Virus record (IMG/VR): IMGVR_UViG_3300050821_013102
Coordinates: 1 to 45,865 of that record
DNA: 45,865 nucleotides
Source of the DNA: a virus
Strand: one strand, 5' to 3'
A program made the position numbers and the translations under genes. Positions 24,648-43,320 of the stretch are shown piece by piece. Numbering within the stretch: position 1 is the first letter of the stretch; every line of letters begins with the position of its first letter. The notes beneath the pieces were generated by a model. That model had not been told where the DNA came from and did not search any database. It worked only from the letters and a program-made list of their open reading frames with translations.

Positions 24648-24811
24648 TTTCCTATCCTTTTCTTCACCTCGTTAGCAATGACACTTACCTCCGAAAGCAT
24701 CGTTCGCAGCAGCCACTCCTGATAACAAAGTAGTAGCAGAGGCTCCATCCCACGCTCTTGTGCATCATCACGCAGGCGCTTTATCTGCTTGACTTGCTTG
24801 CTCTCGGTCAT
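24644..24811 (-). CDS. Small helical protein (55 aa)
   Basis: A 55-residue protein with a strong GGAGG seven bases before ATG 24811. Both ends overlap neighbours as ATGA. It is helical and charged: KQVKQIKRLRDDAQERGMEP, then a Leu-rich centre (LLLLCYQEWLLRTML) and a basic tail (NEVKKRIGK). No known motif. It probably forms a short coiled-coil dimer. Its position between the TPR glycosyltransferase and the KTSC gene gives no clear function. Confidence 0.6.
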   Translation of the reverse strand: MTESKQVKQIKRLRDDAQERGMEPLLLLCYQEWLLRTMLSEVSVIANEVKKRIGK

Positions 24812-26214
24812 TCTGCGGCCTCCTGTTTTCCCATTGTGGAAACGCGATTAGCAAGAGCATCAGCAATGCGCTCAAAAACTGGCTCCCAGCGGGCAGCCGT
24901 GCCTTGCTTGAAAATGCGGTGGTGTGGGCTCCATAGACGCCTAGTGCCGTCGTGGCCAATGCGAAACTCACGGCCGTGATAACTGTACGGTATCCAGCAC
25001 TCTTTGTTCATCGCGGCGCAGATATGGGCCAGGGCGCTTTCACAGCAGATTACCAAGTCCAAGTGCTGCAATAGTCCGATCGTGTCGGAAACGTCTCTGA
25101 CCATCGGCGACAGGTCGCGCAGCAGAGTTGCACAGCCAAGCTCATGAAGGTCGCTGGCGCGCTCGCCGATTTGCAGCGAGTATAACTGAATTCCGGGAAT
25201 ATCGTACAACGTCAGAAAGTGTTGCAGCGAGAAGGACCTCCACACATCGATGTCGTTTGCCTTTGCGCCAGCCCATGCGACGCCGATATGGAGTTTGCGA
25301 TCCGGCGATTTCCATTGCGTCGAGGGCGCCATAAACGGCGGCATGGGGATATTCGGCGCAGTGCGGATTTGCTCGTCGGTCAACCCGAGCGCCCATGGCA
25401 GCGACATAAATGTCGTCCACCCATCTGCGGGAGGCCACGGACAGGGCAGTGGGACGATATTGAGATTGGGGATTGCCTGGAACGATGCTGCGAATAAGCG
25501 CAGCAATTCCGGCTGCACTGCCATATGGACGAACTTCGCCCGCTGGCAAGCCATCGGCACAAACCGAGCGAAGCTCAGTGTATCGCCCAAACCCTGGTCT
25601 GCCACGATGTAGACAGTGGTACCCCCCTCTCCGTCCCATTTTGGGTACGGATATGACAAAAAGCTATGAAGCTTGTATTCAAATCGGGCCTCGAAATACT
25701 TCAGGCCCTCCGCGTAATTGCCAGCGAATAGGTTCGCAAACCCCAGGCCCATCCACAGTTTGCAGTCTGTCGGGTCCAGATCATAGCCGCGCTGCGCCGC
25801 CGACAGCGACTCTCGGAGTTGCCCCTTTGTCGAAAGACACAGTGAGATATTCAACCACGCATAAGCTAGCGTATCATCGAAGTTGCGTGCCTCTCGGTTC
25901 AGAGCCAGCGCTTCATCGACATAGCCAAGCCGGCGTAGACACTCTCCCAGGCTCACCATGACCTTGGCGCGGCGCTCCGGTGGGACTTCCAATTCCAACG
26001 CACGGCGATAGGCGGCGACCGCACCCTGTAAACGATGGAATGTCATGTTGCTATCGCCGACCGCGATCCATCCTTCGGCAAATGTTGGGTCGGACATGAC
26101 GGACGATTGATATAGCTGATAGGTAAGCTGCCCCGCTTGCGGGTTGGTAGCCGCATTCTGCAAGCACTCGGCCGCCTGCCGCATGCAGTTCAGGGCGGAA
26201 ATTCGGTCACCCAC
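24808..26214 (-). CDS. TPR-fused glycosyltransferase (GT9/GT41-like)
   Basis: A 468-residue protein (GTG start, GGGAG ten bases upstream). Residues about 40-200 hold tetratricopeptide repeats, with units such as FAEGWIAVGDSNMTFHRLQGAVAAYRRALEL and later A-W-LN-x-L steps. Residues 200-460 form a GT-B-type domain: VADQGLGDTLSFARFVPMAC, LHIGVAWAGAKAND and the C-terminal DLVICCESALAHICAAM. This order (TPR then transferase) is shared with many bacterial proteins annotated as GT9 or O-GlcNAc-transferase-like. TPRs may bind the protein or glycan acceptor. It heads the first sugar cassette. Confidence 0.75.
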   Translation of the reverse strand: MGDRISALNCMRQAAECLQNAATNPQAGQLTYQLYQSSVMSDPTFAEGWIAVGDSNMTFHRLQGAVAAYRRALELEVPPERRAKVMVSLGECLRRLGYVDEALALNREARNFDDTLAYAWLNISLCLSTKGQLRESLSAAQRGYDLDPTDCKLWMGLGFANLFAGNYAEGLKYFEARFEYKLHSFLSYPYPKWDGEGGTTVYIVADQGLGDTLSFARFVPMACQRAKFVHMAVQPELLRLFAASFQAIPNLNIVPLPCPWPPADGWTTFMSLPWALGLTDEQIRTAPNIPMPPFMAPSTQWKSPDRKLHIGVAWAGAKANDIDVWRSFSLQHFLTLYDIPGIQLYSLQIGERASDLHELGCATLLRDLSPMVRDVSDTIGLLQHLDLVICCESALAHICAAMNKECWIPYSYHGREFRIGHDGTRRLWSPHHRIFKQGTAARWEPVFERIADALANRVSTMGKQEAAE

Positions 26215-26626: not shown

Positions 26627-26804
26627 CTGCCCGCCTCGTCTCCCAATAAACACAATAGCCATCATAGTGGATAGGGTCCACCACGAGCGTGCATTTTCCT
26701 TCCGGCCGATTGCTCCGGGACATCGAACAATTCCCGCAATACTTTTTGGGATATGGAGACTCGAACGTATAATGCGCCTCCTTATGAGAAAGCTTCTCAT
26801 TCAT
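26613..26804 (-). CDS. Small Cys-rich protein, possible zinc binder
   Basis: A 63-residue protein with AGGA upstream of ATG 26804. It has Cys at KYCGNCSMS, GKCTLVV and DGYCVYWE, giving a Cys-x2-Cys...Cys...Cys set that could bind zinc or an iron-sulphur cluster. It overlaps RusA by 14 nt and the DnaA-like gene by 8 nt. No recognised family. The location suggests a replication or recombination accessory. Confidence 0.55.
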   Translation of the reverse strand: MNEKLSHKEAHYTFESPYPKKYCGNCSMSRSNRPEGKCTLVVDPIHYDGYCVYWETRRADARD

Positions 26805-27288
26805 CTTTCAGGTCCTTAATCTCCTGCTCGATTTGCCCAACGATCGCCATCAACTGGGGATCGCTCACAAGCAAGCCCCTGATCTTGCACCTCGAATGCC
26901 GAAGCGAGCTTGTCTCATAACCTCCTAAAAAAAGGCCGACCTTCGCCCACGAGGCATTCGTGTATTTTTTTATGAGGTAGAGGCAAACTTGCCGCGCTCG
27001 ACAAATCGGTTGACGGCGGTCATGAGACATAACCTCATAAGGAAGTACATTGAATGCCGCGCACACAATGCGGATGATATCTCGGGACATCAAATAGGTT
27101 TTCTGTACATCGCGGGAGATTGGAGCCCACGCCAGCGGGTTGCTTGCTGACGTGGGCTGCGCCTCAATGATGGGTTCGGGTACGGATACGGCGAGTGGCA
27201 CCACCTTCCTTTCTATTCCGGGGGATTTCCCGGTTAAACGCCGGATTCGCGCCTTGTGAGCCTCTTGAAGCTCCTGCAAATAGCTCAT
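26797..27288 (-). CDS. DnaA domain IV-like protein without AAA+ domain
   Basis: A 163-residue protein from ATG 27288, with GAGG ten bases upstream; ATG 27342 overlaps the promoter area. After a short helix (YLQELQEAHKARIRRL) and a linker, residues about 70-150 (IIRIVCAAFNVLPYEVMSHDRR, RARQVCLYLIKKYTNASWAKVGLFLGG, YETSSLRHSRCKI) match the helix pattern of DnaA domain IV, which recognises DnaA boxes. The usual signature GGRDHTTV is changed to GGYETSSL, so DNA specificity probably differs. No ATPase domain is present. It may act at the phage origin or as a repressor. It is the first gene of the long minus-strand operon. Confidence 0.65.
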   Translation of the reverse strand: MSYLQELQEAHKARIRRLTGKSPGIERKVVPLAVSVPEPIIEAQPTSASNPLAWAPISRDVQKTYLMSRDIIRIVCAAFNVLPYEVMSHDRRQPICRARQVCLYLIKKYTNASWAKVGLFLGGYETSSLRHSRCKIRGLLVSDPQLMAIVGQIEQEIKDLKDE

Positions 27289-27313
27289 GGAATGCGTCCT
27301 CACAGGGTCGGAT

Positions 27314-27342
27314 AGGGACCACAAAACGGGCGAATCTGTCAA
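27314..27342 (-). promoter_or_regulatory. Weak promoter candidate for the replication-packaging operon
   Basis: On the minus strand TTGACA (27342-27337) is a perfect -35 box. The best -10 candidates (TCCCTA to CCTATC around 27318-27312) match poorly at a spacing of 18-20 bp. It lies about 30-50 nt upstream of the DnaA-like ATG. A promoter is expected here because the gene pair is divergent, but the -10 box is not convincing. Confidence 0.3.
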
Positions 27343-27411: not shown

Positions 27412-29388
27412 ATGGGCAACAATCTCGCTGACGGCATTAGTTTTATCGCTAACTCCACCGGGACCGGGACTTTTATCTTCGGTTCCCCACGTCCCAGCTT
27501 TCTAACCACCGCTCAGGGCCTTGCCAACGGCGTGTTGGCTGACGGTCAGATCGTAAGCTACCTCGCCCAGGATTCGCTAACCAACCCGACCCAACGCGAG
27601 TGGGGGCATGGCACATTCAGTTCTTCGGGCAATTCGATAGCCCGCACGAAGGTGCTCGGGGGCTCAGCCGGCCCAGGAGTGGCGGTCAATTTTGCCATCC
27701 CGCCGACGATATCGCTTACGGCATTGGCCGAAGATATTCTAGGATACGGCGTCAACATCCTCACCTACGGCGGCGTAGGGGACGGCGCGACCGACAACAC
27801 GGCAGCGCTCACAGCCGCCTACGCGGCGCTCAAGGTGAACGGCGGCACGATCTACTTCCCGATGGGGAAGTATCATTTCAGCTCAACTAACACGCTGACA
27901 TTCCCAGCCACCGACGTGCTTTTCTCCCTGTCAATCGTTGGCGACGGTGCTGACGCTAGCGTCCTGTCATTTGCGAGCGGGCAGGGGCTGGTCATACGCT
28001 ACAACAGCAATGTCACGGCACCGAACAATCAAAGCTCGCATTTCCGCGACATCGCCATTACCACACTCGGAACAACCGGCGTTGGAACCGGAATAACGTT
28101 GCAACAGATAGGCAGTAACAACGGCTCCTTTGCCGCACTCTCCGATCTAACGCGCGTGGCGTTTCGAGGCGATGACAGTTACACAGGAACAATGTTTTGG
28201 GGCACCTGTCTGGCCGTCGTCGGGATTAGCAATGTCGATGTTGACGGCTGCATGTTCCAGAGCATTAACAAACCAGCCGGGACTCCTGTGGGGGGCGGCG
28301 TAACCTACAACGGCATCAACGCCTCCAATGTCGCTACCGTGATGAATTTTAACGGCTGCACTTTCAATTCATTGAATGTCGGCTTCAACTACGGAGACAA
28401 TATTCAAGGCATGGCTTTCACCGCCTGCAACTTCACAGGATGCAAGATAGGCATCAACATAGCCGCCGGGCTTAGCAACATCGGTGCTCAGTTGTGCGTT
28501 GAGGGCTGCCAGTTCGGAGTGTTCGGTAACGCCAATGGCATTGTGATGCAAACCGGCATTAACTGCCTGTTGATAACCAACAGCCTATTTTTGTTGAATG
28601 CTGCAAGCAGTGGTGGAGTCGTTCTTACTGCGGCGTCCAATACGACAATCGTCGGCAATGAATTCCAATGTGCTGGAAGCACAGCAAGCATAACCGGCAT
28701 TTCTATCGGAAGTAATCCAAGCAACACCGGCATAGTCATCGCCGATAATGTCTTTGCGGGCATGAACGGCAGCGGCTCTCTGCCGATCTCGGTCGGAGCC
28801 GGCGCCAACAACGTCATTCTCGCCAACAATCCCACGATCTTCTGCAATAATATTGTCAACAACAGTACAGGTGGATTTATCTCCACAATGCAGAACAATG
28901 TAACCACTGGTAATTTTGCCTTTGCCATGTTCAACATGGCCGGCGCACCAGGTTGCGATGGGTTAGCCGTGCGTGCCGGTTCATCGACCACAACGGACTC
29001 TACTACATCACTAATTGCCTTTGCCAATGCGAACGCCGCTCCATCTCTATGTGGCACAATTACACGCAACGGCACAAACACGGTCAATTATGGTACTAGC
29101 TCCGACGCTCGACTCAAAAACCGCTTGCGCAAATCAAGCCGCGGGCTCGACATCCTCAGGCAGATTGACATTTGCGATTTTGAATGGAAGGACACCCCCG
29201 GCAAGGTAGTGCAGGGCTTTATCGCTCAAGATTTATACAAGCATTATCCTGAAGCTGTTCACGTAGGCGGGGATGATCCTGACAAGAATCCATGGGCTAC
29301 TGACTACGGGCGGCTGACCCCCCTGCTCGCGCGTACCATCCTGGAGCTAGAAGAGCGCGTTGAAGAGCTTGAACGCTCTCGGGACTAG
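27412..29388 (+). CDS. Tailspike with beta-helix and S74 intramolecular chaperone
   Basis: A 658-residue trimeric fibre or tailspike protein. Residues 1-110 look like an attachment domain. GVNILTYGGVGDGATDNTAAL at about 112 is the opening of a pectate lyase-like beta-helix, which continues to about 540 with regular Asn/Gly-rich turns. The C-terminal 99 residues are a Peptidase_S74 chaperone: the SSDARLKNRL motif with Ser564 and Lys569 as catalytic pair, then FEWKD, VQGFIAQDLY and a coiled-coil end (ELEERVEELE). The chaperone cleaves itself off after folding. The spike probably binds or degrades a surface polysaccharide. No strong ribosome site precedes the ATG. Confidence 0.85.
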   Translation: MGNNLADGISFIANSTGTGTFIFGSPRPSFLTTAQGLANGVLADGQIVSYLAQDSLTNPTQREWGHGTFSSSGNSIARTKVLGGSAGPGVAVNFAIPPTISLTALAEDILGYGVNILTYGGVGDGATDNTAALTAAYAALKVNGGTIYFPMGKYHFSSTNTLTFPATDVLFSLSIVGDGADASVLSFASGQGLVIRYNSNVTAPNNQSSHFRDIAITTLGTTGVGTGITLQQIGSNNGSFAALSDLTRVAFRGDDSYTGTMFWGTCLAVVGISNVDVDGCMFQSINKPAGTPVGGGVTYNGINASNVATVMNFNGCTFNSLNVGFNYGDNIQGMAFTACNFTGCKIGINIAAGLSNIGAQLCVEGCQFGVFGNANGIVMQTGINCLLITNSLFLLNAASSGGVVLTAASNTTIVGNEFQCAGSTASITGISIGSNPSNTGIVIADNVFAGMNGSGSLPISVGAGANNVILANNPTIFCNNIVNNSTGGFISTMQNNVTTGNFAFAMFNMAGAPGCDGLAVRAGSSTTTDSTTSLIAFANANAAPSLCGTITRNGTNTVNYGTSSDARLKNRLRKSSRGLDILRQIDICDFEWKDTPGKVVQGFIAQDLYKHYPEAVHVGGDDPDKNPWATDYGRLTPLLARTILELEERVEELERSRD

Positions 29389-29391
29389 AAC

Positions 29392-30717
29392 ATGCTGGGG
29401 TTTGCCGCTCTAGCAGAAGTCGCCAGCGCCGAAGTCCCGGCCAACATACTAACGTCGCAGATCACCCTAACAGGCTCATCCAGCCTGATCGCCGTCGCTG
29501 CGGGCGCAATACAAATCAACGCGACGCTCGCTGGTTCCTCGGCGTTCAGCGTCATACCCGGGTCGCCTGGACAGGCAACCCTAATTGCCTCCTCGACACT
29601 CAAAGCCACAGCGTTCGGCGCACAACAAGCCGTGGCGACCTTGGCGGGGTCCTCGCAGGTTAGCGCCGCGACTATAGCCGGCACACAAGCGCAAGCGACG
29701 CTGGCCGGGTCGGGGCAGATCGCCGCCGTCCAAGGTATCCTTGAGGCGGCGCTTCTAGCAGGCTCGTCCAGCCTCATCGCCATAGCCTCGGGGCCGCTCC
29801 AAGCGCTGGCAACGCTGGCTGGTTCGTCGCAGGTAACGGCCGCCGGCGTGGCTGGGTTAGGCGGGCTCGCGTTCCTCCCCGCCTCGTCCGGGCTCAATAG
29901 CGCCACGATAAACACGCTGGTCGCGAGCGCAACCCTGTCCGCGTCGTCGCAGCTCATCACCACCGCCGGAAGCTCACTGCAAGCACTAGCCCTCCTCGCT
30001 AGTTCGTCGCAAATGGTTGCCGCACCGGGATCGGCACAAGCACAGGCAAGGCTAGCCGGATCGTCGCGGGTCAGTGCCGTCGCGAGTCTCGCCCTAAGCG
30101 CGCAGGCGACTCTAGCCGGCTCATCCTCCTCATCCCAAACCGCCACCCTCGGCAGAGGCTCCCTACAGGCACAAGCGATTCTTGCCGCGTCGTCTCGACT
30201 CAGTGCTGTCGCCACCAGCACCGTCGCTCCGCCGATCCCCACTGTTACCGGACCAATACGAGCACCGAGCGGGCGTCTCATCTTCCCGCAAAACCTGCCC
30301 ACGGGAGTCCTAATCTCTAGGCTTATTAAGCCATCCCCGCCATTACCGCAGGTGTTTGTCCGTGAAGTCGCCACGATATTCGTTCCGGTAGACCCCGACT
30401 TATTCAACCTTGTAACAGACCTAATATTCACAAGACCCGATGGGTCGATGTATGCGGTCGATAGAACCCTGTTCTACCCGACATATACATTCGGATTGCC
30501 GCATATGGTCTATACGACTGCTGCTAACGAACTCAATGTGTTCGGCTGGTGGGCAGTGCAATACCAAACGGCAGATGGGATAGTCCCGACGGTTGTATTC
30601 TATTTCTATATATTTGGGTCTGGAATATCGTTTGGGTCTATAATATCGTTGCCGCCATCGCAGCCGCCGCAGCCGCCGGGCAGTCAATCGGATGCTCAGC
30701 CAATGGGGATGCCATAA
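29392..30717 (+). CDS. Repeat-array fibre-like protein A (13 units) with shared C-terminal domain
   Basis: A 441-residue protein three bases after the tailspike. Residues 26-278 hold 13 units of about 19-20 residues around an L-A-G-S-S-x-L/V core (TLAGSSQV, LLAGSSSL, TLSASSQL). Unlike its two relatives it has no N-terminal domain. Residues about 295-412 form the domain common to all three: an FVPVDPDL strand, FTRPDGSMYAVD, Y-x-A-x-NELNVFGWWAVQY and FYFYIF. A Pro/Gln tail follows. The long minus-strand open frame opposite it is an artefact of the repeats. The role may be a fibre or adhesin; not proven. Confidence 0.6.
   Translation: MLGFAALAEVASAEVPANILTSQITLTGSSSLIAVAAGAIQINATLAGSSAFSVIPGSPGQATLIASSTLKATAFGAQQAVATLAGSSQVSAATIAGTQAQATLAGSGQIAAVQGILEAALLAGSSSLIAIASGPLQALATLAGSSQVTAAGVAGLGGLAFLPASSGLNSATINTLVASATLSASSQLITTAGSSLQALALLASSSQMVAAPGSAQAQARLAGSSRVSAVASLALSAQATLAGSSSSSQTATLGRGSLQAQAILAASSRLSAVATSTVAPPIPTVTGPIRAPSGRLIFPQNLPTGVLISRLIKPSPPLPQVFVREVATIFVPVDPDLFNLVTDLIFTRPDGSMYAVDRTLFYPTYTFGLPHMVYTTAANELNVFGWWAVQYQTADGIVPTVVFYFYIFGSGISFGSIISLPPSQPPQPPGSQSDAQPMGMP
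29467..30225 (+). repeat. Degenerate 57-60-bp tandem repeats (13 units)
   Basis: About thirteen consecutive units encoding the Ala/Ser-rich repeat of protein A. Units are diverged at DNA level but keep the LAGSS core and spacing of 19-20 codons. Confidence 0.7.
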
Positions 30718-31778
30718 TGCGCCTACGCCCTGTCCTCATTCTTGCTGGTTCCTTGCTTCTGGGAATACCGACAGTCGTCGCTTTGGCGATCGTCGCTTTG
30801 GCCGATTACGTTTATACGGACGTGAATGGCCCGCACCCAGTTTTTTCTTTTGTCTGTCAGAGCACGAAGCTATGCACCGGCTTCGCGCTGATTGATTCAA
30901 CGGGGACGGAAAAGGGGACCCTTTCCAATCCGGTTGTGGTTGCAAGCAGTGGGGTCGCTCCAACAGTATTGAGTGTATGGACATCATCAACGTCATTAAA
31001 TGCAACACAATTACTCGCGACAAGTAATGCTTTGCCGGCTATCGCCGTTCAGCTCGATCAGACCTCTACGATCAGCGCAGGAGCGGTCACGTTTGAAGGC
31101 ACATTTGACGGAATCAATTGGGCTACGATCCCTGCCACCCAAGTGCTCAATGCCAATACCTTTACGCCACTGACGAATCCATACACGCTCGTCGCAAATA
31201 CAAATCAGCCGTTTCTAATCCTCACCCAAGGCTATCAACAAGTTCGGATCAAATTAAGCACGCCGATAACCGGAACGGGTACGGTGACTCCCTATGTGAC
31301 GGCTTTGCCATACAACCCGACGATTGGGGCGCTTCTCAATCCGCTTAGTCCCGGCAGCGCCATTATAGGTAAGGTTGGGGTCGATCAGACTCTCGATGGC
31401 ACGACCAATGGCGTGAGGCAAACAAATCAGTATCCAGCCGGTGCGACGGCGTTAACTGCTTCTGCGACTGGTACGACAGGCGCCACAACGGCCACGCTCG
31501 CGGCGAGCGGTGGGGTTACCGATTACATTTGCGGTTTTTCAATCCGCGCTAATGCAACGGCAGCGGTAACGGGCAATTCTACCATCTTCGGCACGATCAC
31601 CGGCACACTCAACTTCACGCAATGGACGGCGCCACTCGCCAGCGGGTTGGGTGTAACGGAAATGATCTTCAGTCCATGCGTTCCTGCGAGCGGTGTTAAC
31701 ACCGCGATTGCAGTGGTCTCTGCTGCTCCTGGAGCTGGTGGTACGGTATCCGTGGCCGCTTGGGGCTACACGAAATGA
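30717..31778 (+). CDS. Exported beta-rich phage protein
   Basis: A 353-residue protein from ATG 30717, overlapping the previous stop as TAATG; the earlier in-frame ATG at 30549 would overlap the repeat-protein gene. A basic start (MRLRP) and a long hydrophobic run (about 6-30, VLILAGSLLLGIPTVVALAI) form a Sec signal peptide or anchor. The mature part has Thr/Ser/Asn-rich strands: a FEGTFDGINWATIPA segment, a central YQQVRIKLSTPITGTGTVTPYV sandwich motif and a C-terminal beta domain. The middle resembles domains seen in phage fibres, but the export signal is unusual for a virion protein. Confidence 0.6.
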   Translation: MRLRPVLILAGSLLLGIPTVVALAIVALADYVYTDVNGPHPVFSFVCQSTKLCTGFALIDSTGTEKGTLSNPVVVASSGVAPTVLSVWTSSTSLNATQLLATSNALPAIAVQLDQTSTISAGAVTFEGTFDGINWATIPATQVLNANTFTPLTNPYTLVANTNQPFLILTQGYQQVRIKLSTPITGTGTVTPYVTALPYNPTIGALLNPLSPGSAIIGKVGVDQTLDGTTNGVRQTNQYPAGATALTASATGTTGATTATLAASGGVTDYICGFSIRANATAAVTGNSTIFGTITGTLNFTQWTAPLASGLGVTEMIFSPCVPASGVNTAIAVVSAAPGAGGTVSVAAWGYTK

Positions 31779-32662
31779 AAAGAATATATCGCCTTTTCGC
31801 AACCGCCTTGCTACTTTGTTTATGTCAACAATCTGATGCTTATTTCCAATCGCGTGATTCCAACTATGATACAATCGCTGGCGGCGGTGGCGGCGGTGGC
31901 GGTGGCCCATGTTCGCAATATACTACGTTCATCGCCCGCACATCGGGAACAAGTGGGACTGAGCAGGCAGCCTATCAGGCCATGATCTGCGGCATGGTTA
32001 CGGACGGTACATGGACTCTGCTCGACGTTCTCTATATTTTTGCTACCAACACCACTACCACGGCAGCTCTCAATCTTGTCAGCACGAGCTATACGGCGAC
32101 CGTGCATGGAACGCTGACGTTCTCTGCCGATCACGGCTGGACTGGAGATGGGTCAACTGGATACCTTGACAGCGGGTTCATCCCTGTCGCTACCAATTTC
32201 TCGCAGAATTCAGCATCGGCTGGGGTCTACGATCTTACAAGCCGAGCCTCGCAAGATGGCTCGGTGGCGTTAGGGGAGGATCAAAATAATTTTGATTTAC
32301 TTATTGGTCCGTTGTCAATAGCCGGTGGGGGCGGATTCAGCTATTCCATAGCCGGGACCCCGCAGAACGGGAATGCGAACGCCAATGCTCAAGGATCATA
32401 TCTCGTTTCTAGGACTGCCGCAGCCTCGGAATTTGCTTTTAAGAACGGCTCGTCAATTCATACTGCGACCGACTCAAGCACGACCTTGACTACTATATGG
32501 AATTTTTACGTGTTTGCGACCAACACTGGTTCACCTGCGGGTTTTACCACTGATCAATTGTCCGCAGCATGGTGGGGGGCTGGCATGACGACGACACAAG
32601 CCGGACAAGTGCAATCTCGAATCAACGCCTACATGACGGGGCTAGGGATCAATGTTTACTAA
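31775..32662 (+). CDS. Exported lectin-like (concanavalin-like) phage protein
   Basis: A 295-residue protein from ATG 31775, overlapping the previous stop as ATGA. The signal peptide MKRIYRLFATALLLCLCQQSDA has a cleavage site after SDA. Nine consecutive Gly follow at about 42-50 as a flexible linker. The rest looks like a jelly-roll lectin domain, with GWTGDGSTGYLDSGFIP and a WNFYVFATNTGSPAGFT strand region, ending in a helix (QVQSRINAYMTGLGI). Similar domains occur in phage fibres. No lipobox was recognised (LCLC lacks the small residues), although a Cys lies in the hydrophobic core. Confidence 0.6.
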   Translation: MKRIYRLFATALLLCLCQQSDAYFQSRDSNYDTIAGGGGGGGGGPCSQYTTFIARTSGTSGTEQAAYQAMICGMVTDGTWTLLDVLYIFATNTTTTAALNLVSTSYTATVHGTLTFSADHGWTGDGSTGYLDSGFIPVATNFSQNSASAGVYDLTSRASQDGSVALGEDQNNFDLLIGPLSIAGGGGFSYSIAGTPQNGNANANAQGSYLVSRTAAASEFAFKNGSSIHTATDSSTTLTTIWNFYVFATNTGSPAGFTTDQLSAAWWGAGMTTTQAGQVQSRINAYMTGLGINVY

Positions 32663-34100
32663 ATTATGCGCCCTGATTATTGTCGGGTTTCTTTATTGCT
32701 CTCTAGCATACGCCGGTGGTCGCGGTGGGCACAGCACAACCTTTGACCCAAATTTATACGGGGGCGGCTGGAAGAATATCTTGGATTTTAATGGTGCATG
32801 CGATCTGGCGGCACACGATGCTTGGATTGCCTATGGTGTTGCTCTCAATCCTGCTCAGGCAAAACTCTATATCCCACCGGGAACGATTTGTAATTGGCCC
32901 GGATGTGGCAATTTAACTAACAGTTGCATCAGCGGGAATCCCGGCATACAGAACGCAATTGTCTGGGCTTACGGCGCAAGTTTCACCTCTCCGATAAGAA
33001 TCGGTGCCTGGACATTCTTCAATGACGGAATCCATAGTGCGCGAATCAATTCCGCGAATGTGGGTGACTCTTCTGTCGTCTTGATCACTCCCGGCGATGC
33101 CGCAAAATTCTCGGTTGGTTCTTGGGTGAACGTTAACGGTCTCGAATTGCAATTCGGTGGCTTCCCTGGAAATTGGCAGTACAATGAATATCGTCTGATC
33201 ACAGCCATTAATGGATCGACGATCACATTGAACGCGCCGCTTACGAATTCTTATTCATCGGCTTGGCCACTAGCAGATATTGGGGCTATAGGCGGATTCG
33301 ATGATGGTGGCCCCGCAAGTATCTACCTGATGGAACCGAGCTGGAACGTTAATCTTACGGCGCTCGGGTTTTCCGTTTTGCTCCCGAACAACCAAATAAT
33401 TGTAACGGGGCGTGATGTGTCCGTCTATGACAGTGTGATATTTAATTATGCTCCTTCGGCCAGTATTTATAATCGGCTTTTTTCGAGCAACATCGTTGGC
33501 AGTGAAATTGACAAGGACATCGAGCTTCTGGCAATTGTCCAAAGTAAATTCAACAATAACGTCACTATCCAAAGCTCTTCTATAGCAAAACTGGTCCTAT
33601 ATAACGTCAACGGTGTTCTCTTAGGCACGGCACTGAACAACGAGATTTATGGCGGCAATCTAACCGCCAACCTCGGACCGATTGCTTTTGGCGTTACATC
33701 GACAATTACCGCTGATGGGGCGAATATTCCAGTAGCGCTTGCACTCCCCGGCCCCTTGCTCGCGGCAGCAGGATTTTCTTTCAACGCCGGTACGCTCTCG
33801 CTTCCTAACTCAGCCCGCCTTTGGCAATGGGGCGTGCCGGGTCATAAATATTATTTTAGTGATTCTGATGGCACCAATAACGCAATTCCAACGACATTTT
33901 TTACGATTGGTGCAATAACTCAGGATATCAACAATACCTATTTCACGATGACTAATTGTAGCTGGGGATCGTGTTCTGGGGCGCTTCCGACTCCCGTATG
34001 CAATACCCATTCGTGCCCAATGTATACACCTTATACAGCATTGACGATCACGCAAAAATTCACCGGCCCAGCTAATCTTGTGCCGTTTCAGGCACCTTAG
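32652..34100 (+). CDS. Exported beta-helix protein
   Basis: A 482-residue protein with signal peptide MFTKLCALIIVGFLYCSLAYA cleaved before GGRGG. Mature sequence begins with FDPNLYGGGWKN; ILDFNGACDLAAHDAWIAYG and LYIPPGTICNW fit the start of a pectate lyase-like helix, followed by Asn-rich turn repeats (VQSKFNNNVTIQSSSIAKLVLYN). Cys pairs (CNWPGCGN, CSWGSCSG, CNTHSC) may form disulphides, consistent with periplasmic folding. It is the third successive gene with an export signal. Its stop overlaps the convergent 693-aa gene by 4 nt, so no terminator separates them. Confidence 0.65.
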   Translation: MFTKLCALIIVGFLYCSLAYAGGRGGHSTTFDPNLYGGGWKNILDFNGACDLAAHDAWIAYGVALNPAQAKLYIPPGTICNWPGCGNLTNSCISGNPGIQNAIVWAYGASFTSPIRIGAWTFFNDGIHSARINSANVGDSSVVLITPGDAAKFSVGSWVNVNGLELQFGGFPGNWQYNEYRLITAINGSTITLNAPLTNSYSSAWPLADIGAIGGFDDGGPASIYLMEPSWNVNLTALGFSVLLPNNQIIVTGRDVSVYDSVIFNYAPSASIYNRLFSSNIVGSEIDKDIELLAIVQSKFNNNVTIQSSSIAKLVLYNVNGVLLGTALNNEIYGGNLTANLGPIAFGVTSTITADGANIPVALALPGPLLAAAGFSFNAGTLSLPNSARLWQWGVPGHKYYFSDSDGTNNAIPTTFFTIGAITQDINNTYFTMTNCSWGSCSGALPTPVCNTHSCPMYTPYTALTITQKFTGPANLVPFQAP

Positions 34101-36178
34101 GCCCAGATATAAAATCGGTACTTGTCGGAGAGAGTATTTGCCGTCGCGTAGTTGGCGAGCCACCAACCATACTGACCGAACTCGTTTATAGCCGCGTTAT
34201 AAATAATATTCAGATTGTCAAAATCCGACCCTATGTAAGCATACCTCATATCTGCCGGCTGTTGTGTTCCATCCGGCGCGGTAAACAGGATTGAGACCAG
34301 TTTTTCGCTTAGCTGCTGCTTGATGGGCAAGAACAACACGCACGACTGGTTCTCGAAGACCTGAGTCTTGGGGGCGACTTTCGGGAGCGAGAAGCCGGCG
34401 GTGTCCGGCACATCGACCAGAAGCGGCTCGGCAAAAATGTTCTTGCCGGTCGAAGGACGCGGGGTCGGCGCCACGAACGAAACGAGGATAGGAGTCGCAG
34501 TCAGCGTGCTGTTGGCAGCGAGGGTCGCGACCGCTTGGGTGGCTAAGAACGCCGTGGTCCTCAGAGTGCTCGACCCGGCCAGCGTCGCAGTATCGAAAAT
34601 AATCGAGGTCCAAAGCGCCGTCAGCGTGCTCGACGCTGCCAGCGTGGCGCTCACCAGCATCGCCTGCCGGGCCGTTGCGGTCAGCGTGGACGTAGCGGGT
34701 AGGATGGCTATCGCCGCTAGAGCAAACCTCGCGGTTGCCGAAAGGGTGCTCGATCCTATGAGTGTGGCAGTGAAGCCGGACCCGAGCGGCATCGCCCGCA
34801 GCGTGCTCGACCCGGCCAGTGTGGCGATCGCCGCAAGGGTCTGAAGAAGGGTTGCCGAAAGGGTAGAGGTGCCGGCTAGGGTAGCCGTGGCGGTGAGCGC
34901 GAGGCTTGTGGTTGCGGTTAGCGTGGATGACGCCGCTAGGGTCGCGGCCAGTAATTGACCCAACGGAATGGCGCTCAGGGAGCTGCTGCCGGCCAGGGTT
35001 GCGACCACCAGCAGGTTCGCAGTCGCCGTCGCCGTCAGCGTGCTCGACCCGGCTAGCGTAGCCACCAGCGCCAGGGCAGCCGCGCCGGGGATGAGGGTAG
35101 AAGAGGCCGCCAAGGTCGCCGTTGCCAGCAGCGCCAGCGAGGTGGTCGCCGTCAGGGTCGAAGAAGCGGCAAGGGTGACATTGGCCGTCAGCGCTAGCTG
35201 GGTGGTGGCGGTTAGCGTTGAGGAGGCGGCAAGGGTGGCCACCAACGCCTGAGCGGCTTGTGCAACGATGAAGGTGGAGCTCGCAGAGAGTGTCGCGGCA
35301 GCGCTGAGCGCCAGAGAAGTAGTAGCCGTAAGGGCTGAGGAACCCGCCAGTGTCGCGTTCGCCGTTAAGGCGGCTGTGATCTTGGCAGTAAGCGTGCTGG
35401 AAGCAGCGAGAGTAGCGGTGGCGGACGAAATGACGGTGGGAGGCAGCAGTACCGGAAGTTCTCTCTCGGGCTGACCTTGAAGGTAAGAGAGTCCGTTAGC
35501 GTAAAGAGCAAAGACTTCATCAGCGCCGAGTGCGCGGTTGTAAAGCCGACAATCATCTTGAGTGAATGGAGAATAGGTGTATTGGTTACCGTTAAATTGA
35601 CCGCTTATGAAGAAATTTCTAACGGTGTAGCCAGTGTAAGAACCCGCCCCATTACTGGCAGCGGTGCCGACAAGAAGGCCATCTATGTATAGATTTTGTT
35701 TTGTCGCGCTGTATGTAGCTGCAATGTGATGCCAATTGCCGTCTGTTACCTGTCCAACAATAGTGCTGGCAACTGTTACCTGGGAGGTGCCATTATATAT
35801 TAACCACCCCACCAGACCAGTGACGCCAACCCACACGATTTTATCGAATGTGGGACTACCTAGTCCGTTCGCAAATCCGAAAAGCGCCCAATTGGTGCCT
35901 GTTGGTGGAGAGCCCTTAACCCAAAGTGATAGGGTTACAAACGGAACATTTATTACGGTGTTACTGAGTACATAATTGTTGGTTCCGTTGAATTTTAATG
36001 CTCCCCCAATGATCCCATCGGCTGGCAGGGGATTATTTACCAGTGTCCCGTTATTCTGATTGCCGGTGAAGTCAGTCGCGGTGCCGTCGTCAAATGTATA
36101 CCACGCGAAGAGGCCGTTATCGTTGACCTTCAACTGCGCCGTAAGGACGTTGAATTTAGCCAGCGGCGAGAAAGGCAT
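34097..36178 (-). CDS. Repeat-array fibre-like protein B (LamG head, about 16 units, shared C-terminal domain)
   Basis: A 693-residue protein. Residues 15-230 are a LamG/concanavalin-like domain: LFAWYTFDDGTATDFTGNQN, LSLWVKG, WHHIAATYSATKQNLYIDG, DDCRLYNRALGADEV. Residues 257-568 hold about 16 units of a 19-20-residue Ala/Ser/Thr repeat (TLAASSTLTATTSLALTA type). Residues 574-693 are the shared end domain with GKNIFAE, FENQSCVLFLP, ILFTAPDGTQQPAD, YGWWLANYATAN and DKYRFYIWA. The architecture suggests a glycan-binding head, a stalk and a common anchor or assembly domain. Confidence 0.65.
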   Translation of the reverse strand: MPFSPLAKFNVLTAQLKVNDNGLFAWYTFDDGTATDFTGNQNNGTLVNNPLPADGIIGGALKFNGTNNYVLSNTVINVPFVTLSLWVKGSPPTGTNWALFGFANGLGSPTFDKIVWVGVTGLVGWLIYNGTSQVTVASTIVGQVTDGNWHHIAATYSATKQNLYIDGLLVGTAASNGAGSYTGYTVRNFFISGQFNGNQYTYSPFTQDDCRLYNRALGADEVFALYANGLSYLQGQPERELPVLLPPTVISSATATLAASSTLTAKITAALTANATLAGSSALTATTSLALSAAATLSASSTFIVAQAAQALVATLAASSTLTATTQLALTANVTLAASSTLTATTSLALLATATLAASSTLIPGAAALALVATLAGSSTLTATATANLLVVATLAGSSSLSAIPLGQLLAATLAASSTLTATTSLALTATATLAGTSTLSATLLQTLAAIATLAGSSTLRAMPLGSGFTATLIGSSTLSATARFALAAIAILPATSTLTATARQAMLVSATLAASSTLTALWTSIIFDTATLAGSSTLRTTAFLATQAVATLAANSTLTATPILVSFVAPTPRPSTGKNIFAEPLLVDVPDTAGFSLPKVAPKTQVFENQSCVLFLPIKQQLSEKLVSILFTAPDGTQQPADMRYAYIGSDFDNLNIIYNAAINEFGQYGWWLANYATANTLSDKYRFYIWA
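34475..35410 (-). repeat. Degenerate 57-60-bp tandem repeats (about 16 units)
   Basis: These encode the LAASSTL-type repeat of protein B, with a period of 19-20 codons. The plus strand lacks stops over long parts, giving spurious antisense frames. Confidence 0.75.
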
Positions 36179-36191
36179 TTACGCCACCGAG

Positions 36192-36659
36192 TTATGCGAT
36201 ACTTCGGTTATACGTTCGGTACTGGCAAGTATTTCCAGACGCCGCTAAGGCAACGCCGCCGCCATTGTAAAGAACAAAACTAAAAGTGCCGGGCGGAAGA
36301 ATGAGTCTGTTAAGCGATCCGACTTGAGTTTGTGTCGCAGCGACGATGCCAATGTTGCCTTGCCAGTAATTGCCAGGCGGAGGTCCCGCAGCGGATGCGG
36401 CAAACCGGCCGTCACCGAAAGTCGTGCCGTCCTTGTTCAGTGGATACAAATAAATGCCAATGAAATTTGGCGCCACGAAAGCCGCAGAGGCAAGCGCAAT
36501 GCTCACATCAGCAAAAACATCCAGAGCCGTCCCATTCGTGATTGATATTCCCGATAGAATAGCGTTGCCGTTGGCAATCGAGTTAAGCGTAGCCGTGGCA
36601 AACGCATCGCCCCAAGTCAGTCCTTGGCCAGAACCGGCAATCCATTTCTCAACTGACAT
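36192..36659 (-). CDS. Small virion-type beta protein
   Basis: A 155-residue protein with GGAG eight bases before its ATG. WIAGSGQGLTWGDAFATA, IGIYLYPLNKDGTTFGDGRF and a PPGTFSFVLYNGGGVAL ending resemble beta-sandwich proteins found among phage tail genes. No known domain is named. It lies between the two large repeat proteins and may form part of the same fibre. Confidence 0.6.
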   Translation of the reverse strand: MSVEKWIAGSGQGLTWGDAFATATLNSIANGNAILSGISITNGTALDVFADVSIALASAAFVAPNFIGIYLYPLNKDGTTFGDGRFAASAAGPPPGNYWQGNIGIVAATQTQVGSLNRLILPPGTFSFVLYNGGGVALAASGNTCQYRTYNRSIA

Positions 36660-36695
36660 AGGTTACTCCGGGTTGAAGCGGAAAGCATACACTTC

Positions 36696-39629
36696 CTACT
36701 GCCATATGTAAAACCTATACTTATCAGAGAGTACGTTAGCACTTGCGTAGGCTACCATCCACCAGCCGAACTGATCTAGCTCTCTCGGAGCTACATTATA
36801 AATGACATGTTCCTCACCAAAAGTAGAGCCTACGTAAGCAAAGCTTATGTCGCCTGACTGCTGCGTCCCATCCGGCTTGGTAAATAGGATAGCTTCCAAG
36901 TTGCCATACAGCGGCTTTCGTTTTGGCACAAATAATACACACGACTCATTCTCAAAAATCTGAGTTGTGGGACTAGTTGGCGGAAGTTTGAAGGGATTAA
37001 AGGTCAGCGGATCAACAAGCTCGGCAAAAATATTAGCACCAGTCGTGCGGCGCGGCACGAGCGGGATGGGCGGGATGGGCGGAACAAACACGGTCGCGGC
37101 CAACGTACTAGAAGAGGCCAACGTAGCGACCGCTTGGAGAGCATTCGCCGGCGTCACCCACAACGCCGACAGAGTTCCCGACGCCGCCAAGGTAGCGGCC
37201 ACCATCATCGTTGCGGTCACATTAGCGGTGAGCGTCGAGGAGCCGGGCAGCAAAGAAATGCTGAACCCTATCGCCATGGCAATAGCACCCAGCGTGCTGG
37301 ACGCCGCCAATGTCGCGTTCACCTGCTGCGCCAACGAGATGTTAGCAGTGAGGGCGCTCGACCCGGCTAGTGCCGCTATCGCGGCAAGAGAAAACTTGGC
37401 TGTGGCGGCGAGCGTTGAAGAACCCGGCAGCAAAGAGATGCTGAACCCTATCGCCTGGGCAATCCCGCCAAGGGTGCTCGAGCCGGCGAGGGTTGCGAGG
37501 GCGGTTAGCGCAAGCGACGGAGTCGCGGCAAGAGCACCACTGGCAGCGAGCGTCGCGGTAGCGGCGAGATGAAGAGAGGGCGTAACGGCGAGGGTCGAAG
37601 AGGCAGCAAGAGTGGCGTTCGCCGTGAGACCGAGCGAAGTCGTCGCGGCCAGCGAGCTTGACCCCGCAAGCGTCGCGGTGGCGGCAAGCACGTTGAGAAC
37701 GGCGCTGAAAGTGCTCGAACCAGCGAGGGTTGCTGTAAGTAACTGACCAAGGGGGATTGCTGTCAGCGTCGAGGAACCGGCCAGTATTTGGTCGGGCACG
37801 ACTGCTGCAAGGGAAAGGGCCGATAATTCGCCGTCGCCGACAAGCGTGGCGCTTACCCGCATAGTTTGCGTGGCCGTCAGACTGAGTATGCTAGAGGCAG
37901 CCAGTGTGGTGTTGGCGCGAAGCGCGAGCGAGGTCGTGGCCGTGAGGGTCGAGGAGGCGGCCAGTGTCGCCGTCGCCGTCAAGGCGAGCGAGGTCGTGGC
38001 GGTAAGAGTGCTCGATCCCGCGAGCGTTGCCGTGCTGAGAACTGCCGCTGCGGTCGAGGCGGTTGCACTAAGGGTGCTCGAACCAGCCAGCACAGCACTA
38101 GCGGTAAGACCGAGAGATGTCGTAGCGGTGAGAGTACTCAACCCAGCGAGGACAGCATTAGCGGTGAGGCCGAGCGACGTGGTCGCCGTCAGCGTCGAGG
38201 TGCCCGCGAGCGTCGCAGTCAGAAGTTGACCCAGCGGGATCGCTGTCAACGTCGAGCTTGCAGCCAGTGTCGCGGTAACGCTGAGCGCTAGCGAAGTCGT
38301 CGCCCCGAGCGTAGAGGAGCCCGCAAGGATTGTGCTTGCGGTAAGACCGAGAGATGGCGCCGCCGACAGCGTGCTCGACGCGGTGAGCGTCGCGGTGCTG
38401 AACACTACAGTCGGGGTTGGAATAGCGCTGAGCGCGCCCGCGCCCGCGAGCGTGGCCGTGAGCAATTGGCCGAGTGGAATTGCGGTAAGAGTTGAGGAGG
38501 CGGCCAATACCGCGTTGGCGGCAAGACCGAGCGAGGTGGTCGCGGTGAGGGTAGATACGCCTACAAGAGTACGAAATAGAAATTGATTGCTGGTGGCAGC
38601 CAACGTCGAGATGGCCGCGAGTCTCGCATTAGCTGTCAGGCCGATACTGGTTGTGGCGGACAGCGTAGAAGAGGCGGCCAGCGTGGCCGACGCAAAGAGC
38701 GGAGCAAGAGGGATCAGCGTGCTGGACGCTACGAGATTAGCGTTAGCGGTGAGACCAATCTGGGTCGTAGCGGTCAGAGTCGAAGACGATGCGAGCGTCG
38801 CATTCAGAAATGATTTGCCGAGGTTGCCAGTGGCAGCCAGCGTCGAAGATGCGGCAAGGCGTGCGTTCGCCGTAAACGCCTGAAACGGCGTTGCGGTAAG
38901 TGTGGCACCGCCCGCTAATTTCGCGGTATTGGCACCACCTACCGTTCCAAGCGCCGCAATGTCGCAGGCAGTCCAGCAGGCCGGATTAGACTGGGGAGCG
39001 CTGACGGCTTCAGCAACAGCACAGTTAGTCGAAGCACCCGCGCCAGCGATATAAATTCCGCCGCCCGAGACGTTTGTAATCAAGCCATAAAGGAAAGTAC
39101 CAGTCTGGCCACTACCTCCGGCGGTTGTGGCCCACGTGCCGTTATTTGTCCCGGCGCAAAACACCCCAAAGTCGCCAGACGCGCAATTTAAGGAAGCGCC
39201 GCCTGTTGGATACGCCACGGCAGAGCTGGCGGAAGATGCCGGATTGCCGCTGATGAAATTTCTAAAGGTGCCAGCGACGCTGCCTTGATCCGCTCCGGTG
39301 AAGGAAACCATGCAATAGGCGTACGAGGCTGACCCAGTCCACGAGACTTTTAGAAGCTTCGCGCCCGACGTGGGAGCAATCAGACCAAAAATGTAACTAG
39401 AGGCAAGATTGTCGGACTCGACTGAGCTGCCAACCAGGGTCATTGCCTGGTTGGTGCCGGCTGTATCCCAGAAAGCCGTAACGCTACTAACGACGCCCCC
39501 GAATTGGATCAACAGGGCGAGAACCCTGTTTGACCCGGCCCCCACGGTTATCGAGGACGCGCCCTCAGTAAATGTAGTCGCCGCACCCGCTGTATGTGCT
39601 GTACCCGCAGCATCGAATGCGACGGCCAT
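36696..39629 (-). CDS. Repeat-array fibre-like protein C (about 31 units, shared C-terminal domain)
   Basis: A 977-residue protein, the largest in the window. Residues 1-235 are a Gly/Ser-rich jelly-roll-like head (VLALLIQFGGVVSSVTAFWD, LLKVSWTGSASYAYCMVSF). Residues 238-847 contain about 31 units of a 20-residue repeat with core LAxSSTLTA and a second half such as TTSLALTANA or IPLGQLLTA. Residues 858-977 are the same end domain as protein B (NIFAE, FENESCVLFVP, ILFTKPDGTQQSGD, FGWWMVAYASAN, DKYRFYIWQ). Two copies of IGFSISLLPGSSTL stand exactly 60 residues apart, showing recent three-unit duplication. The repeat may form a beta-solenoid stalk. Confidence 0.65.
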   Translation of the reverse strand: MAVAFDAAGTAHTAGAATTFTEGASSITVGAGSNRVLALLIQFGGVVSSVTAFWDTAGTNQAMTLVGSSVESDNLASSYIFGLIAPTSGAKLLKVSWTGSASYAYCMVSFTGADQGSVAGTFRNFISGNPASSASSAVAYPTGGASLNCASGDFGVFCAGTNNGTWATTAGGSGQTGTFLYGLITNVSGGGIYIAGAGASTNCAVAEAVSAPQSNPACWTACDIAALGTVGGANTAKLAGGATLTATPFQAFTANARLAASSTLAATGNLGKSFLNATLASSSTLTATTQIGLTANANLVASSTLIPLAPLFASATLAASSTLSATTSIGLTANARLAAISTLAATSNQFLFRTLVGVSTLTATTSLGLAANAVLAASSTLTAIPLGQLLTATLAGAGALSAIPTPTVVFSTATLTASSTLSAAPSLGLTASTILAGSSTLGATTSLALSVTATLAASSTLTAIPLGQLLTATLAGTSTLTATTSLGLTANAVLAGLSTLTATTSLGLTASAVLAGSSTLSATASTAAAVLSTATLAGSSTLTATTSLALTATATLAASSTLTATTSLALRANTTLAASSILSLTATQTMRVSATLVGDGELSALSLAAVVPDQILAGSSTLTAIPLGQLLTATLAGSSTFSAVLNVLAATATLAGSSSLAATTSLGLTANATLAASSTLAVTPSLHLAATATLAASGALAATPSLALTALATLAGSSTLGGIAQAIGFSISLLPGSSTLAATAKFSLAAIAALAGSSALTANISLAQQVNATLAASSTLGAIAMAIGFSISLLPGSSTLTANVTATMMVAATLAASGTLSALWVTPANALQAVATLASSSTLAATVFVPPIPPIPLVPRRTTGANIFAELVDPLTFNPFKLPPTSPTTQIFENESCVLFVPKRKPLYGNLEAILFTKPDGTQQSGDISFAYVGSTFGEEHVIYNVAPRELDQFGWWMVAYASANVLSDKYRFYIWQ
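37089..38918 (-). repeat. 60-bp tandem repeat array (about 31 units)
   Basis: About 1.83 kb of degenerate 57-60-bp units encoding the repeat of protein C. A higher-order copy is visible where 37251-37275 and 37431-37455 differ by one base over 25 and are 180 bp apart. Confidence 0.8.
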
Positions 39630-41263: not shown

Positions 41264-41659
41264 CTACGAAATCGTTAGCGTCAGAGCTCCCGCCGCAAAG
41301 ATAAGAGTGTCACCGATACCGAAAGTGCGAGCCGTCGCCAAGGTGCCGTACCACAGCATGTCCGAGGAGTTCACCGGCGAGCCGTCGAACAGTGCCACAC
41401 CAAGCGCCGAGCCCACCGAGGAGAACGGGCCGAAGGTCATCGCCGCCGTGATGCTCGCGCTGCCGGTCGGGCTGGCTGCCGCACCAAACAGTGACGTAAG
41501 CCGGGAATATCCGGTCAGCGTCCCCATCTCCGAGGCCGAGACCGATGTCGGCGTCCCGATCGAAAGCGCCGCCCAACGGGCGGCCGGTTGCGTGGCGGTT
41601 GCCGCCCCGGTAGCAAAATCAAGATAAAGCTTCTCTAGGAAGGCGCCGATTGCAGGCAT
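41264..41659 (-). CDS. Phage tail-associated protein
   Basis: A 131-residue protein: FLEKLYLDFATG, AALSIGTPTSVSASEMGTLTGYSRL, a Ser/Ala-rich beta region (ASITAAMTFGPFSSVGSALGVALF) and SDMLWYGTLATARTFGIGDTLIFAAG. The pattern LYL-ALS-x-PxS-xSE-GYxR is one I know from small phage proteins near fibre genes, probably adopting a beta-sandwich. Its gene overlaps the glycosyltransferase gene by 25 nt. Confidence 0.65.
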   Translation of the reverse strand: MPAIGAFLEKLYLDFATGAATATQPAARWAALSIGTPTSVSASEMGTLTGYSRLTSLFGAAASPTGSASITAAMTFGPFSSVGSALGVALFDGSPVNSSDMLWYGTLATARTFGIGDTLIFAAGALTLTIS

Positions 41660-42414
41660 TCCGATTCTCCTTCGGCCACTGTCTTATCTCGGAGTTCTTT
41701 TATGATCCCCGGATGCTGCTGGCAAAACGCCTTCATCATGTACGACTCGCGGATGTATGGCGAGGCGACCGCCAACGACACTCGTTCTAGTACCTTATCG
41801 TGCGGCAACACTATAGGCCAATTGAACATCGCGTGGAAGCCGAAGTGTCTTGACGTATCTGACGGTCTACTGCACTCGAATGCGAACTGATGCGCCACAC
41901 GCTCCGGCGCCCACAAAAACCCGGCCTCCTCCAAAACCGGGCGATACTTACGGCAAAGCAGGTCGTCATCAACGTGAGTGTCGCAGGGAAACTCCAAACG
42001 CCGGTCGGCAATATAGCGCTTCAGCCGCGTGGAAATAAGAGAAAAACCCCCGTTGCCAACGTTCTTGCCGTCACGATACCACCACGGCGCCCCAATGTAA
42101 TCGTACTCCATGAACGCGTCAGTCCACATCGACGGGTCCCAAATCCAACTGTCCCACTGAATGTTAAGGGTCTGCCGGGTGCGAACAAGCGGCGGTACCT
42201 CGAACCACCACGCCCGCGACCAGCCCAGCTTGTTCGGCCAGTCGGGAACATAATGATAATTACCGACGATCCCCGCAAACTCAACCGGCTTGTCGGTCAG
42301 GATCAGCACGGCCCCAAACTCGGCAACCTTCAGACACTCCTCGACCGCCATCGCCGCTAGCTTGTGCTCGCGGGTCTCGACCATCACAAGGGTAACATCA
42401 GGGAGCTTTAACAT
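41635..42414 (-). CDS. DUF5672-like glycosyltransferase
   Basis: A 259-residue protein from ATG 42414, with GGGAG upstream; an ATG at 42504 would add an Arg-rich stretch overlapping the previous gene. VTLVMVETREHKLAAMAVEECL begins it, followed by AVLILTDKPVEF, QWDSWIWDPSMWTDAFMEYDYIGAPWW and VGNGGFSLISTRL, with DTHVDDDLLCR. These are landmarks of DUF5672, a GT-A-type family. It probably transfers a sugar to a glycan or protein. It is the last gene of the second glycan cassette, immediately before the fibre genes. Confidence 0.75.
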   Translation of the reverse strand: MLKLPDVTLVMVETREHKLAAMAVEECLKVAEFGAVLILTDKPVEFAGIVGNYHYVPDWPNKLGWSRAWWFEVPPLVRTRQTLNIQWDSWIWDPSMWTDAFMEYDYIGAPWWYRDGKNVGNGGFSLISTRLKRYIADRRLEFPCDTHVDDDLLCRKYRPVLEEAGFLWAPERVAHQFAFECSRPSDTSRHFGFHAMFNWPIVLPHDKVLERVSLAVASPYIRESYMMKAFCQQHPGIIKELRDKTVAEGESECLQSAPS

Positions 42415-42622
42415 TCCGCTCCCATTGCCAATCCCCCCGTTCCTTCGGCCGAAACCACTTGCGCCAACGCCAACGGTTCGCCGAGCGCACGATGTGCTCC
42501 GCAAACTCTCTACCCCACTCCCCGCCGGTCACATCACAAACAATCGCGCCGTGGCCGTCGGCAATCGAAATATAGAACGGGTGGCGGTTTGGGCTAGTAA
42601 CAATGCGCAGCGGATACTTCAT
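42398..42622 (-). CDS. Small phage protein, unknown function
   Basis: A 74-residue protein from ATG 42622, with GAGG five bases upstream. MKYPLRIVTSPNRHPFYISIADGHGAIVC contains a strand pair (given here in parts: PLRIVTS, PFYISIADG, IVCDVTGG), and the C-terminus is basic and Trp-rich (RWRWRKWFRP). Similar small proteins with an N-x-PFYI-D element occur in phages. No function is known to me. It overlaps both neighbours. Confidence 0.55.
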   Translation of the reverse strand: MKYPLRIVTSPNRHPFYISIADGHGAIVCDVTGGEWGREFAEHIVRSANRWRWRKWFRPKERGDWQWERNVKAP

Positions 42623-43320
42623 TTCAACCTCGGCTTCATCACATACCACGCCATCAGGCACGGACGGCCCTCGTTCACCGCAAACCAACGAACCAACGAA
42701 CTCTGCCGGTGCAGAATCTCATAGATGTTCGGATTGCGCGGGCCTTCCCAGATGCACTCAATGTCATGAGAACCATGCCACCTCTGAGTCAATATCCCCT
42801 GTGTGTCCTGATGCAGCAGATTGTGCAACTCGACAATGATGTGAGCATGCTTCAGATCAGGAAACTTCTCCGCATCGAGGTACTCAACCTCAGCCCCCTC
42901 ACAGTCCATCACCACAAGATCGGGCGCAGCAAATACTTCGCTAAGAGGTTCTCCCGAGATCAAGCTAACCCCATTCAACGCCGCCGTGTGGCGCGCAATC
43001 CGCAATGCCTTCTCGTCCGTATCAATCACATACATTCGCGCATGCGGCAGCCGCCGCTTCAACCCCACCGCATAATACCCCTCCGCACACCCGACATTCA
43101 CAATCTTCGGCGTTGCTACCGACTCTAACCGCTCTATCTCCTGCTCTATCACCTCATGCAATTCCGCCTCGTAACAGCCCAGCAATTGCGGCGATAGAAA
43201 ACCACTGTCCCATGACTGCTCGCGGAACAGATTCATCCCCTTAAACGGACCAGATTGCACAACGCCCCCAGTCTGCTCGTACAGCCAGTCCTCAAACTCA
43301 CCCTTTGAATGAATCTCCAT
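42619..43320 (-). CDS. SAM-dependent methyltransferase (FkbM-like)
   Basis: A 233-residue protein from ATG 43320 in a TGATG overlap with the GT9-like gene. IVNVGCAEGYYAVGLKRRL is the SAM-binding glycine motif, YVIDTDEKAL the acidic residue for the ribose, then LVVMDCEGAEVEYL with the D-x-E-G-E/A pattern of FkbM-type enzymes. C-terminal IVELHNL fits. It probably methylates a sugar or glycan made by the adjacent transferases. Confidence 0.75.
   Translation of the reverse strand: MEIHSKGEFEDWLYEQTGGVVQSGPFKGMNLFREQSWDSGFLSPQLLGCYEAELHEVIEQEIERLESVATPKIVNVGCAEGYYAVGLKRRLPHARMYVIDTDEKALRIARHTAALNGVSLISGEPLSEVFAAPDLVVMDCEGAEVEYLDAEKFPDLKHAHIIVELHNLLHQDTQGILTQRWHGSHDIECIWEGPRNPNIYEILHRQSSLVRWFAVNEGRPCLMAWYVMKPRLK

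Follow-up and report, generated by a model that had tools for sequence, protein, structure and literature searches.

Most known fibres of Caudoviricetes are anchored to the virion via the N-terminus. The pIII protein of filamentous phages carries N-terminal receptor-binding domains, flexible repeats, and a C-terminal virion anchor; it is compared here only for the way it works, the phage type being unrelated and no homology being claimed. In the case of the lactococcal phage TP901-1, the N-terminal domain of BppU (PF10651) forms part of the means by which peripheral adhesins are attached to the baseplate (PMC3893620). The N-terminal domains of FibL and FibU of Staphylococcus phage 80alpha are also used for baseplate attachment, a common module being combined with different stalks (PMC7048315). 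The latter system is the closest known design to the three proteins analyzed here, namely, P1, P2, and P3, as it comprises two fibres with the same kind of Ig-like domain and differing stalks, one a coiled coil and the other collagen-like. BppU_N domains bind the tail hub (Dit) and bear receptor-binding parts. The likeness to BppU lies in an Ig-like domain that links, or in our proteins would link, peripheral receptor-binding parts to the virion. However, the BppU domain is N-terminal and continues into a coiled coil, whereas the domain shared by P1–P3 (the C-domain) is C-terminal or nearly so in 18 of 19 copies and the proteins have beta repeats. Similarly, the FibL and FibU domains are N-terminal and belong to a siphophage baseplate, whereas the C-domain stands behind long beta-repeat arrays, and the likeness is one of fold and design, with no sequence relation detected. 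As known fibres are mostly N-anchored, a C-terminal foot would be unusual.

The window, that is, the whole stretch of 45,865 bases that was analyzed, is IMG/VR virus record IMGVR_UViG_3300050821_013102 from an uncultured tailed phage infecting bacteria. According to our own reading of the IMG accessions for the window and its sister contigs, the habitat of the virus is probably soil. Its encoded proteins include matches to terminase large subunit, major head, and head closure proteins, and a putative portal was assigned from its position and a sister-phage homologue. The best terminase identities among GenBank phages were not above 35% (uncultured spring phages) and 27% (Hydrogenobaculum phage), and no near relative was found among these phages. 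Moreover, megablast with positions 1-25000 of the window returned zero matches, and scans of bacterial and archaeal genomes with the C-domain and the portal revealed no relatives. Profile searches with the portal and terminase yielded approximately 100 sister contigs, many of 62-68 kb, all of which are partial sequences.

Several other genes of the window were also noted. A sugar-nucleotide cassette (20654-23296, minus strand) encoding an NAD-dependent epimerase/dehydratase, a DegT/DnrJ aminotransferase, and a hexapeptide transferase is located among the structural genes, which suggests possible glycan modification; a TPR protein (24808-26214) adjoins it. The phage protein encoded at 26797-27342 (minus) has the C-terminal helix-turn-helix domain of DnaA. 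Ahead of the P3 gene cluster, the region 41635-44402 (minus) encodes DUF5672 and methyltransferase-like proteins as well as a 360-aa protein that had no match in Pfam and appeared glycosyltransferase-like by eye. At 161-655 (minus), a small protein starts with LQSGNVTPGHLASWVTDS; its homologues in the sister phages G001 and G007 lie directly 3' of the C-domain gene, and the G007 homologue forms the N-terminus of a pectate-lyase-like tailspike.

The three open reading frames of the preliminary description were recovered at the same positions and on the same strands. P1 (441 aa; 29392..30717, plus strand) consists of a short N-terminal peptide of approximately 25 residues starting with MLGFAALAEV (29392..29466), an array of 13 LAxSS units (29467..30240), the C-domain (30250..30606; profile E 2.8e-31), and a Pro-rich tail of approximately 35 residues, all on the plus strand. 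P2 (693 aa; 34097..36178, minus) has a LamG/concanavalin-like head (35444..36178), 16 LAxSSTL units (34463..35410), and the C-domain (34103..34468; profile E 3.2e-36), likewise on the minus strand. P3 (977 aa; 36696..39629, minus) is composed of a head (38919..39629), 31 LAxSSTL units (37062..38918), a Pro hinge, and the C-domain (36702..37058), again all on the minus strand. The front ends thus differ, as had been described. The P2 head matched Laminin_G_3 (PF13385) with an E-value of 6e-15, and this family covers the exchangeable head only. The P3 head is of another kind, for which no relative was found in Pfam, PHROG, or the fetched sister loci. P1, which had been regarded as having no front end, indeed has no head domain, but its N-terminal peptide is present. 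When the fetched loci were searched for LamG, only the window's own copies were returned; the head of the sister protein G013 gave a weak LamG match (0.0015) below the cut-off.

We consider P1–P3 to be paralogous tail-fibre-type adhesins with a probability of roughly 0.6, each built from an exchangeable head, a beta-repeat stalk, a Pro hinge, and an Ig-like virion-docking foot. Exchangeable heads on a common scaffold, as expected of modular tail fibres and adhesins, were found here. From the N- to the C-terminus, a head would be followed by the tandem beta-repeat stalk, the Pro-rich hinge, and the Ig-like C-terminal foot. The stalk length would be set by the number of repeat units, and the foot would dock onto a common virion partner, so that a single phage would present several distinct heads on identical sockets. 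These heads presumably bind glycans. In the course of lineage evolution, the stalk-foot cassette would have been duplicated and the heads exchanged, as would the stalk over longer times.

The genomic context is consistent with a virion role. P1 directly follows the gene of a tailspike (27412..29388, plus) that has a pectate-lyase-like domain and a Peptidase_S74 chaperone and stops 3 bases before the P1 start. A different role, in which P1–P3 are not virion proteins but are displayed or secreted by the infected cell, for example, for superinfection block or host-envelope action, is highly improbable. It draws on the signal-peptide-like starts of two proteins whose genes lie shortly after P1 (31775 and 32652, plus) and on a third open reading frame with a hydrophobic start; however, a crude scan revealed no signal-peptide-like start on P1–P3 themselves, and the S74 tailspike lies immediately before P1.

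Signal-peptide-like N-termini were also seen on fibre-type proteins more broadly, that is, in the window at 31775-34100 (plus) and in the sister contigs L007 (1577, minus) and L143 (6510, minus), examples being MKRIYRLFATALLLCLCQQSDAY and MFTKLCALIIVGFLYCSLAYAG. In the sister phages, such starts precede a tailspike-type motif, SGFVTPGHAxCWxTNG. They are odd for virion proteins and, judged from the sequence, could indicate export during infection. The stand-alone protein at 32652..34100 (plus) showed 28% identity (E 5e-29) to the head of G030b, a sister protein from contig L124 with a beta-helix-type head, repeats, and the C-domain. Thus, the same domain exists with and without a stalk and foot.

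The repeats had been described as units of 19-20 residues, numbering 13, 16, and 31 in P1, P2, and P3, respectively. The counts were confirmed and the mode was 20 residues, whereas the lengths inside the arrays ranged from 18 to 23. The motif occurred 11, 15, and 23 times in P1, P2, and P3, respectively, compared with at most 3-5 times in 1000 shuffles, and the identity at a lag of 20 residues was 0.30-0.41, whereas shuffled sequences reached no more than 0.19-0.21. The residue identity between units was approximately 50%. The fourfold third bases at conserved repeat residues differed at a rate of 0.68-0.71 (0.63 between adjacent units), while 0.69 was expected at random. Since the synonymous sites are saturated with the amino acids retained, the units are old and the protein pattern is under selection. 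The same saturation ruled out an origin of the repeats by recent tandem duplication. As the composition of the arrays is biased, they could be taken for a chance product of low-complexity Ala/Ser/Thr/Leu sequence with neither true units nor homology. This reading is refuted by the register and motif counts far above shuffles, by the synonymous saturation with amino acids kept, and by the highly significant homology of the C-domains; accordingly, the concern that the repeats might lack a conserved register was not borne out.

AlphaFold models of the arrays were all-beta and strictly periodic, with pLDDT values of 56-90 over two models (56-79 in one; a mean of 76.5 and pTM of 0.70 in the other). 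The two models disagreed in how the strands are laid out, and the PDB gave only non-significant matches to the array model, many of the best being beta-solenoids. The predicted fold of the stalk is therefore provisional, and the stalk would presumably be rod-like. In addition, PHROG 31951, the function of which is not known, matched the P2 repeats (1e-7) and P3 repeats (6e-5) but neither the C-domain nor the heads, and similar repeats are thus present in other phages. No matches were obtained by tblastn against GenBank phages using P3, the P2 C-domain, the sister protein G001a, the LAxSSTL array, and the L081 protein, the negatives for repeats alone being weak with the low-complexity filter on.

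In the case of the C-domain, the approximately 115 last residues were homologous in all three proteins, as previously proposed. The pairwise identity was 56% for P2/P3, 30% for P1/P2, and 35% for P1/P3, with BLASTP E-values of 2.6e-48, 2.7e-16, and 5.0e-21, respectively, and the Smith-Waterman scores were 143-356 compared with 52-66 for the best shuffled sequences. Among the aligned motifs that had been listed, FTxPDG and (F/Y)GWW occur in all three proteins, whereas DKYRFYI is restricted to P2 and P3, P1 having FYFYIF instead. When 12 C-domains were searched, none matched Pfam or PHROG better than E 0.02, i.e., beyond chance, which agrees with the earlier remark that no named phage family with this combination was known. 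Sequence matches in the PDB, such as that to tachylectin-2, covered a stretch of only approximately 27 residues and were judged to be due to chance.

The C-domain of P3 was predicted by AlphaFold to be an Ig-like sandwich (pLDDT 85-96). Unrelated C-terminal folds had been named as a result that would speak against the proposal; instead, the C-domains are homologous in sequence, and the predicted fold comes from that of P3 alone. Among viral fold matches (BFVD), an 88-aa phage protein ranked first, and baseplate and BppU N-terminal proteins were among the top matches (E 6e-4 to 2e-3). The PDB fold matches included general Ig domains, TP901-1 BppU (4v96), and an 80alpha baseplate chain (6v8i); as Ig folds are generic, antibody matches scored about equally to those of BppU. 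Membership in BppU_N was rejected by sequence, as none of the 34 records matched PF10651 at E<=10 while a Lactococcus lactis control was positive. A link by profile was rejected as well, hhalign giving E-values of 0.29 against TP901-1 BppU and 0.73 against a profile of 51 BppU sequences. The C-domain may work like BppU_N, as far as the model goes, although these comparisons did not place it in that family.

To follow the C-domain beyond the window, up to 49 sister records were searched, of which 13 were positive, with L081 added by iteration. The profile searches revealed 16 further copies in 11 sister phages, giving 19 distinct copies including the window's three. With the family split in two, the halves still aligned (hhalign E 7.5e-11). 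In all copies but one, the domain ended within 36 residues of the C-terminus, mostly behind an array. The exception is G037, a 1573-aa protein that has its C-domain close to the N-terminus. The upstream 260 residues were tandemly periodic beyond 100/100 shuffles in 13 of the 19 copies, with periods of 20-21 or approximately 35-38 residues. In G013 and G030b, repeats could be seen by eye although the periodicity test gave a borderline result, and no upstream array was seen in G001a, G011, G033b, and G037. A Pro-rich stretch directly before the C-domain was visible in approximately half of the copies.

The arrays fell into approximately seven sequence classes, namely, LASS/FAGAG/LPG, GVSG, ITEADDT, SEAASAADTV, a W/P-rich class of ~37 aa, FFD-KLLK, and EEQH. 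LASS aligned with FAGAG and LPG in hhalign. A single origin for all classes was rejected, as LASS was not joined to GVSG, ITEA, or SEAA; the pairs with ITEA_L124a are invalid in this comparison, no units having been extracted for it. Sister-phage fibres of L007 (2078-6073), L120, L122, and L142 also contain W/P-rich arrays (GWEIQPPQPPHPRPERSGAIMRGDDGNEAPF) of ~37 residues per unit and approximately 1000 aa in length. As the C-domain recurs with unrelated repeat types, it is this domain that stays constant, rather than the LAxSSTL array. The proposal of one scaffold with different heads was thereby upheld and widened, the C-domain being joined to other heads and unrelated repeats in 11 sister phages.

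These copies also bear on the possibility that the C-domain helps the stalk to assemble or trimerise, or caps it, and neither docks nor binds. Such a function would suit its position behind a repeat array in most copies, and caps or chaperones are a frequent need of fibre ends, the adjoining tailspike having its own Peptidase_S74 chaperone. However, G001a and G011 have no repeats to cap, the G037 copy belongs to a large protein of another kind and is found close to that protein's N-terminus, and the preceding repeat classes are too dissimilar for one specific cap. This explanation was thus considered improbable.

The main rival to the docking foot is reversed polarity, in which the C-domain would be a distal adhesin and weak glycan binder, the N-terminus would dock, and the repeats would serve as a spacer. 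N-anchoring is usual in tailed-phage fibres, and the sister phage G001, which was found by profile and has two C-domain copies, offers a suitable case. Its protein G001a (L004; approximately 160 aa) starts with MLGFAALAEV as P1 does and has no repeats, so that only this peptide and the C-domain are common to both, as expected of a docking peptide plus a binder. The second copy is in a 1331-aa protein with a different head and a W/P-rich repeat of approximately 35 residues. However, P2, P3, and most sister proteins start with differing domains, including the binding-type LamG, and thus lack a common N-terminal dock. Moreover, the constant part is the C-domain, which is most alike within a genome. 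The mean C-domain identity was 42% within genomes compared with 22% between genomes (permutation p 1e-4), and the window's trio (G000) and the G030 pair formed clades with support of 97/92 and 99/100, respectively. Reversed polarity was therefore regarded as unlikely.

Three observations favour anchoring of the foot to the virion, namely, the Ig fold resembling that of BppU_N, the within-genome similarity of the C-domains, and the exchange of heads. A constant foot, variable heads, and phage-specific foot similarity fit docking to one phage-specific partner, although the within-genome similarity could arise from plain recent duplication alone. Points against the docking foot are the position of the C-domain in G037 and the approximately three-quarters of sister contigs with no detected copy; in these, the C-domain system would be either accessory or diverged past detection.

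Fibres determine the host range of phages, and most fibres of uncultured phages escape sequence recognition. The conserved foot provides a profile for finding fibres by their constant end, regardless of the stalk and head. More tentatively, and at somewhat less than even odds, a large group of uncultured phages would have this unnamed C-terminal Ig-like domain as its universal foot, one that accepts any of several unrelated repeat stalks and any head, with several different C-anchored fibres per particle. Should the foot indeed anchor these proteins to the virion, they would reveal a plan for tailed-phage fibres with C-terminal anchoring, as well as a natural system of head exchange.
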